35,591 bases of DNA. Origin: Sphingobacteriaceae bacterium (GTDB lineage: Bacteria > Bacteroidota > Bacteroidia > Sphingobacteriales > Sphingobacteriaceae). The DNA is taken from NCBI GenBank assembly GCA_019751895.1, contig JAIEMU010000138.1:1-35591 (forward strand). The letters are read 5' to 3'. Below, piece after piece: positions 15,951 through 16,888 of this stretch. The position numbers were made by a program, and so were the translations under genes. The notes below the pieces were generated by a model. It saw only the letters and a program-made list of their open reading frames with translations, did no database searches and was not told the origin of the DNA. Positions within the stretch are counted from its first letter, which is position 1; every line of letters starts with the position of its first letter.

Positions 15951-16107
15951 AATAATACCACCACCTTCGGGATTGGATTTGTATGGCTTTTATAAACAAT
16001 AACATTGATATAATTGTTTCCAAACTATAAGCCCAAAGGGCTGACATTATTCTAAATTACAACAATCAAACACTTCAGTAACCCCGAAGGGGTGTTATTA
16101 TTTCTCA
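15951..16107. repeat. Composite REP-like element, left copy (~155 bp, three hairpin units: one +, two -)
   Basis: Nearly identical to 16698-16855 (a few substitutions and 1-nt indels); carries units at 15951-15976 (+), 16029-16051 (-), 16081-16102 (-). Confidence 0.9.
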
Positions 16108-16562
16108 TTCCATTCAAACAAATAGGTCTCATTATATTCAATTTCAAATTTTTGCAAAAAATCCACATATTCTTCTTTAAACGTTTTTTTATGATGATGT
16201 TGTTCTTGATTGAGGATGTAATTATAAACCTGCTCTATTTGTGAATGTGCATACGAAAAAGCACCATAACCTTCTTGCCACGAAAACTTACCTCTCACAA
16301 GTTTTTTGTCGTTGATAAATTTACTCGAATTATTTTTAATGTCTCTAACTAAATCTGAGAGTGCCATTGAAGGTTTTAAACCAACAAAAATGTGAATATG
16401 GTCAGACACCCCGTTTACGATAATTGATTTATGCCCTTTATTTGTGATGATTCCTGAGATATATTTGTACAATTCTTCTTTCCACGCTTTAGCAATAAGG
16501 TTTTCTCGTCCTTTTACGGCAAAAACAATTTGAATGTATAATTGTGAATATGTACCAGCCAT
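16098..16562 (-). CDS. IS200/IS605-like Y1 (HUH) transposase, probable REP-associated tyrosine transposase (RAYT)
   Basis: 154 aa single-domain protein: HUH motif SDHIHIFVGLKPS, catalytic Tyr region IEQVYNYILNQEQHHHKKTF; embedded in a REP-like hairpin array. Confidence 0.88.
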   Translation of the reverse strand: MAGTYSQLYIQIVFAVKGRENLIAKAWKEELYKYISGIITNKGHKSIIVNGVSDHIHIFVGLKPSMALSDLVRDIKNNSSKFINDKKLVRGKFSWQEGYGAFSYAHSQIEQVYNYILNQEQHHHKKTFKEEYVDFLQKFEIEYNETYLFEWNEK

Positions 16563-16576
16563 AATTATAATTTTTA

Positions 16577-16697
16577 TACCACCACCTTCGGGATTGATTG
16601 CTATAATAATACCATCCCTTCGGGATTGGGTTTTGTCTTTATAATTCTATAATAATATCATCCCTTCGGGATTAGATTTTGTCTTTCTTAATTCTAT
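16577..16697 (+). repeat. Tandem REP-like hairpin units U2-U4 upstream of the transposase gene
   Basis: taccaccaccttcgggattg (16577), aataataccatcccttcgggattgg (16605), aataatatcatcccttcgggattag (16651); 46-47 bp spacing continuing into the unit at 16698. Confidence 0.85.
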
Positions 16698-16855
16698 AAT
16701 AATATCATCCCTTCGGGATTGGATTTGTATGGCTTTTATAAACAATAACGTTGATATAATTGTTTCCAAACTATAAGCCCAAAGGGCTGACATTATTCTA
16801 ATATTACAACAATCAAACACTTCCGTAACCCCGAAGGGGTGTTATTATTCCTCAT
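16698..16855. repeat. Composite REP-like element, right copy (~155 bp)
   Basis: Second copy of 15951-16107; units at 16698-16723 (+), 16775-16797 (-), 16828-16849 (-). Confidence 0.9.
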
Positions 16856-16888
16856 ACTATCCTCAGGAAGTTCTATTTTAAAGTTTAA

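Follow-up and report, generated by a model that had tools for sequence, protein, structure and literature searches.

A probable REPtron-like module of an IS200-side Y1 transposase and its hairpin repeats in Bacteroidota

We analysed a stretch of 35,591 nucleotides from a Sphingobacteriaceae bacterium (contig JAIEMU010000138.1 of assembly GCA_019751895.1), which we call the window. Between a GH3 gene and a gene for an AddA-like helicase lies tnpA (16098..16562, minus strand), with an array of short hairpins on either side. It encodes a 154-aa single-domain Y1/HUH transposase of the subclass 1.2 type, with the motifs DHIH, WQ and YILNQEQHH. A preliminary description of this DNA had placed a Y1 gene of this length amid nine hairpin units, and indeed both the open reading frame and all nine positions are present, seven of the units being perfect and two degenerate. 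Each of the seven perfect units has a 5-bp stem and a 3-nt loop; the expectation from shuffling the 465 bp of non-coding array is 0.094 perfect hairpins, with a maximum of 2.

To the left of tnpA there are three units: a degenerate unit A' (15951..15974, plus strand; stem AATAATACCACCACCTTCGGGATT), a unit B with a perfect 5-bp stem (AATAATGTCAGCCCTTTGGGCTT; 16029..16051, minus strand, hairpin 16030-16042) and a unit C (AATAATAACACCCCTTCGGGGTT; 16080..16102, minus strand, hairpin 16081-16093), the foot of which overlaps the tnpA stop codon. On the right, the unit closest to the 5' end of the gene is again a degenerate A' (16572..16595, plus strand). It is followed by three A units on the plus strand, one with the sequence AATAATACCATCCCTTCGGGATT (16605..16627, hairpin 16614-16626) and two with the sequence AATAATATCATCCCTTCGGGATT (16651..16673, hairpin 16660-16672; 16698..16720, hairpin 16707-16719), and by second copies of B (16775..16797, hairpin 16776-16788) and C (16827..16849, hairpin 16828-16840), both on the minus strand. 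The array units are oriented, being inverted around tnpA. Furthermore, a direct duplication of about 150 bp is found on both sides of the gene, with a left copy (15964..16113, A'-linker-B-C) and a right copy (16710..16860, A-linker-B-C) that are 93-99% identical. The duplication, the orientation of the units and the overlap of the 3' foot with the stop codon had been overlooked before.

The two degenerate units (at about 15951 and 16577; ACCACCTTCGGGATT) scarcely fold. A near form of this sequence, CACCACCTTCGGGGTT, was found again in Pedobacter changchengzhani (locus L011). With two copies of ACCACCTTCGGGATT in the window and a similar sequence in P. changchengzhani, the broken stem may represent a variant that is conserved, and not decay.

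Next, we asked to which class the transposase belongs. The protein matches the Pfam family Y1_Tnp (1.1e-25) and the NCBIfam family of IS200/IS605 transposases (1.5e-19). Its catalytic motif is Y114-ILNQEQHH, in which the tyrosine, N117, Q118, H121 and H122 are invariant among 15 homologues. RAYT/TnpAREP proteins carry Y---NP, while Y---Q--HH is the signature of subclass 1.2, a sister group of the IS200 transposases (Quentin et al. 2018, PMC6006769). In the window protein the Y---NP of class 2 is absent and Y---Q--HH is found instead, and all three subclass 1.2 motifs (DH[IV]H, WQ and Y---Q--HH) are present. A profile of 47 homologues compared with the PDB found the ISDra2 and IS608 transposases (3.3e-10 and 1e-7), and TnpAREP was not among its matches. 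The same two proteins are the best structural matches (5.5e-8) of an AlphaFold2 model of the transposase (pLDDT 93); the E. coli REP transposase 4er8 ranks 30th (7.4e-5). The preliminary description had inferred a RAYT/REP-like system, with a still-mobile IS200-type element as an equal possibility. We rejected the assignment to RAYT, given that Y---NP is absent, that the hairpins have no GT[AG]G foot, and that both sequence and fold are nearer to IS608 and ISDra2. Judged by its sequence, the protein fits subclass 1.2 of Quentin 2018, and tnpA also shows the low copy number and the occurrence in Bacteroidota or Cyanobacteria by which that subclass is described.

There is one copy of tnpA in the window genome, where many near-identical copies had been named in advance as the mark of an ordinary insertion sequence, and the copies in other genomes are divergent rather than near-identical. 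The ratio dN/dS is 0.01-0.17 throughout (0.05-0.06 for the window gene against its nearest relatives), and therefore the enzyme is kept functional. Fold and residues match those of the IS200/IS605 family, and TnpA is predicted to cleave and join single strands as HUH-Y enzymes do. The window genome holds a second Y1 gene on another contig (L237; G000:C13:22091-22354), a divergent NHIH gene of class 2 (RAYT-like), beside which we did not find hairpin units of the tnpA kind.

To see what is common to such loci, we compared 80 homologous ones, mostly from Bacteroidota, together with some metagenome-assembled genomes (MAGs) labelled Ignavibacteria, Anaerolineales/Chloroflexi and Neomarinimicrobiota. 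At 80/80 of these loci, short G+C hairpins are found near the gene. Up to 150 bp from the gene their density is 9.9-11.2 per kb; past 600 bp it drops to about 1 per kb, and within the gene itself it is 0.11 per kb. Of 61 loci, 56 have their closest 5' unit inverted and 57 have their closest 3' unit in forward orientation. The consensus unit comprises an A/T-rich foot, a stem of 5 bp, a loop of 3 nt and a T; the foot consensus, CTATAATAATnTC, was derived from 230 A-type units and does not match GT[AG]G.

The outer stem pair is either A-T (A-type) or G-C (G-type). Complementarity of the stems is preserved where the bases vary: the second pair is complementary in 107/118 A-type cases, compared with 52 after shuffling, and the third pair in 69/73 G-type cases, compared with 34. 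When the stem type is mapped on the protein tree, it changes 3 times, as against 25.5 times in shuffles, none of which (0/500) gave as low a number. The window tnpA falls into a clade of 40 rows that is entirely A-type (support 98). Note that this match alone does not prove co-evolution, as gene and units are physically linked and shared descent contributes to it. Other subclass 1.2 lineages (L031, L036 and L239) have palindromes of greater length next to the gene (GCCCGCGGTTTAAACCGCGGGC, CCACGCCCTGAAGGGCGTGG and CCCGTGGTTGAAACCACGGG), and it may be that the whole of subclass 1.2 has cognate hairpins.

We then counted the units across genomes, using the reversed pattern as a control, which gave zero or near-zero matches. 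The window genome (G000) is a MAG of 2.3 Mb, 79.7% complete, that was assigned to the same genus as Pedobacter changchengzhani. All 7 of its consensus matches lie within the array, and neither the strict search nor a search with two mismatches found units elsewhere in this 79.7% complete MAG; the 4 additional two-mismatch matches are not hairpins. The idea that the array is the source of hairpins elsewhere in its own genome is therefore not supported by this assembly. In relatives, dispersed units are found: 56 in Dyadobacter sp., 13 in P. changchengzhani and 35-51 in Flavobacterium genomes. Among 60 relatives, the holders of a close A-type tnpA have 13 (G005), 27 (G037) and 17 (G058) A-type units, and the others have 0-2, except for G048 with 19. 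In G048 (L244, L246 and L247) the tnpA is just 53% identical and has no adjoining units; has the cognate tnpA been lost, or is it missing? P. changchengzhani also has tandem arrays of unit pairs with a period of 268-284 bp (L248 and L249; G005:C1:66400-68300 and C7:8700-10400), and tnpA was not found within these two stretches.

We also counted exact G-type units in 150 genomes of the genus Flavobacterium, where 56 genomes hold the gene and 80 are gene-less. Ten or more exact units occur in 19/56 gene-holders and in 0/80 gene-less genomes (Fisher p 5.6e-9, a value without correction for phylogeny), and the totals are 618 and 26 units, respectively. The preliminary description had counted units in genomes without any related Y1 gene as evidence against its reading; this applies only weakly, to 26/653 copies, and one genome, G088, lacks a Y1 gene and still carries 7 units. 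What it had proposed more generally, a REP-like system in Bacteroidota, holds: there is a low-copy transposase at each locus, with cognate hairpins and genome-wide dispersal in relatives.

Most of the dispersed Flavobacterium units are arranged as inverted doublets of a REPIN-like kind, which are polymorphic from one species to another. For example, Flavobacterium ginsenosidimutans (G078) has 17 neighbours at distances of up to 100 bp, of which 13 form inverted -/+ doublets, spaced mainly by 22-55 bp; random placement would give 0.05 neighbours. These doublets have a second, outer unit pair (CTATAAATATTTCGCTTCTCCGAAGCTT), so that the elements measure about 180 bp; the tnpA of this genome occupies the place of the central spacer of the doublets, and the layout is otherwise alike. 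Inverted doublets that are over-represented in intergenic DNA, as expected of REPINs, are thus found in relatives and are absent from the window genome. One doublet element (L120) occupies the same site in 9 species; at least 10 other species have the same two genes with no element between them. At the empty site in G133 the flanks are 94 and 97% identical. The left edge of the element follows directly after a terminator T-run; the right flank has diverged from the empty sites, and no target-site rule can be fixed from it. In four elements (L133, L134, L138 and L139) the units run 1-2-centre-rc2-rc1, which is the commoner form, rc2-rc1-spacer-1-2, circularly permuted, and such permuted doublets could be products of single-strand circle intermediates.

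The order GH3-AddA of the window is kept in other Pedobacter genomes, with or without a thioredoxin-like gene and always without tnpA at this place; in two of them the gap is only about 14-45 bp, and we found no syntenic tnpA at the window locus in other Pedobacter genomes. The module is therefore a lineage-specific arrival, which speaks against a domesticated gene inherited vertically at this locus. A-type tnpA genes, 80-89% identical, occupy unrelated loci, so the gene behaves partly like a mobile element. G-type genes, on the other hand, keep their synteny among Flavobacterium species and as far as Chryseobacterium. At three loci (L047, L055 and L059), in MAGs labelled Ignavibacteria, Flavobacteriaceae and Bacteroidetes, the tnpA genes are 90-93% identical and share common flanks; either a larger segment was recently transferred or the MAGs were mis-binned. 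Since the units in the window genome have multiplied only locally, including by the 150-bp duplication, the module there looks newly arrived or inactive. A comparable local concentration in Marinomonas REPtrons has been read as a recent arrival (Corneloup 2021, PMC8266576).

We conclude, with a probability of roughly 0.7, that this is a REPtron-like module in which a Y1/HUH transposase of the IS200 side (subclass 1.2) has its own cognate hairpin repeats, with REPIN-like dispersal in relatives. This reading builds on the architecture of the loci, the compensatory stems, the link between stem type and clade, the dispersal in relatives, the presence and absence of elements between species and the purifying selection. 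The biochemistry of IS608, ISDra2 and E. coli TnpAREP is established, and it is by analogy with them that TnpA would bind, cut and move its hairpins, that circular intermediates would form and that elements would be mobilised in trans. Two inverted units bracket tnpA. In such a scheme, a TnpA dimer would bind the hairpins while the DNA is single-stranded, probably on the template of the lagging strand. It would cut near the foot through Y114, with the HUH motif and Q118 holding the metal. Gene-free inverted doublets would be excised and then re-inserted in trans, where they would seed REPIN-like elements in intergenic regions, and tnpA itself would stay low-copy and rarely move.

Alternatively, tnpA could be an ordinary IS200-type insertion sequence with hairpin ends. 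In that case the array would be the debris of repeated insertion on the spot or of tandem duplication, and the units dispersed elsewhere would be dead ends of such elements. We regard this as unlikely. It would agree with the class 1 protein, with a lineage-specific insertion at the window locus and with A-type genes at unrelated loci across phyla. Against it, there is a single full copy in the genome and not many near-identical ones, and the ends are inverted (56/61 and 57/61), unlike those of IS608 and ISDra2, which are same-strand hairpins. Moreover, gene-free doublets in Flavobacterium far outnumber the copies of the gene, and the G-type clade shows strong purifying selection and conserved synteny.

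Could the hairpins instead be regulatory and act on tnpA as terminators, mRNA stabilisers or transcription insulators, rather than serve as substrates of the transposase? Hairpins close to genes of the IS200 type are known to restrict expression, and the units do adjoin genes and terminators. Yet their stems are not followed by a T-run, the conserved A/T foot is on one side only, the units are inverted around the gene and doublets also lie far from tnpA. The stem type goes with the clade of the transposase, and no known RNA family matched the units, the matches being chance ones below the threshold. We therefore consider a purely regulatory role very improbable. That the dispersed units belong to class 2 RAYT genes, among which the subclass 1.2 genes merely landed, is hardly credible: class 2 genes do co-occur in these genomes (including that on G000:C13) and atypical hairpins have been described near subclass 2.6 (Quentin 2018, PMC6006769), but the stretches that we fetched around class 2-type matches in the same genomes have no units next to the Y1 gene, whereas subclass 1.2 genes systematically have them.

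The REPtron-like module can be compared with several known systems. With the TnpAREP/RAYT REPtrons and their REPINs or BIMEs (Bertels & Rainey 2011, PMC3116915; Corneloup 2021, PMC8266576) it shares a low-copy Y1 gene between short hairpins, cognate inverted doublets that are dispersed (in relatives), strong purifying selection and a repeat abundance that is tied to the gene. It differs from them in its class 1 protein with Y---Q--HH, in the foot CTATAATAATnTC in place of GT[AG]G and in the window genome being without dispersal. Like IS200/IS605 elements such as IS608 and ISDra2, it has the fold, the catalytic motif and the nearest solved structures, and hairpin recognition is to be expected; unlike them, it has inverted hairpins, arrays of many units, a single gene copy and abundant gene-free doublets (in relatives), and it has no tnpB. 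TIRYTs and TIRtrons (Di Nocera 2013, PMC3733652) also have a Y1 gene between inverted terminal palindromes and some dispersed terminal repeats, but their proteins are RAYT-like (subclass 2.1 in Quentin 2018) and their TIRs are longer.

Lastly, there is subclass 1.2 itself, with which the window protein shares DHIH, WQ, Y---Q--HH, a length of about 150 aa, low copy number and a distribution mainly in Bacteroidota. This subclass was recorded as having "no" REP and as generally lacking terminal structures of the IS200 type (Quentin et al. 2018, PMC6006769). For the window lineage, the hairpins at 80/80 loci contradict this published absence, which is a described property of the subclass and not part of its definition; beside several other subclass 1.2 lineages there are hairpins of different kinds. 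In the openly readable papers we found no earlier description of such repeats, and Quentin 2018 is the sole relevant account among them.

If our reading is true, Bacteroidota own a large REP/REPIN-like system that is run by a branch of transposases recorded as repeat-less. The chances seem about even that REP/REPIN-type systems arose at least twice, once with the class 2 RAYTs and once in an independent class 1 branch in Bacteroidota and neighbouring phyla, with the permuted doublets as possible circle products. The A-type clade, mobile among loci and phyla, would then stand for the stage before, and the G-type clade, syntenic in Flavobacterium and Chryseobacterium, for the stage after; cultured hosts exist in Flavobacterium, Chryseobacterium, Pedobacter and Dyadobacter. 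A second origin, if true, would allow one to compare the routes by which transposases become low-copy caretakers of repeat populations.
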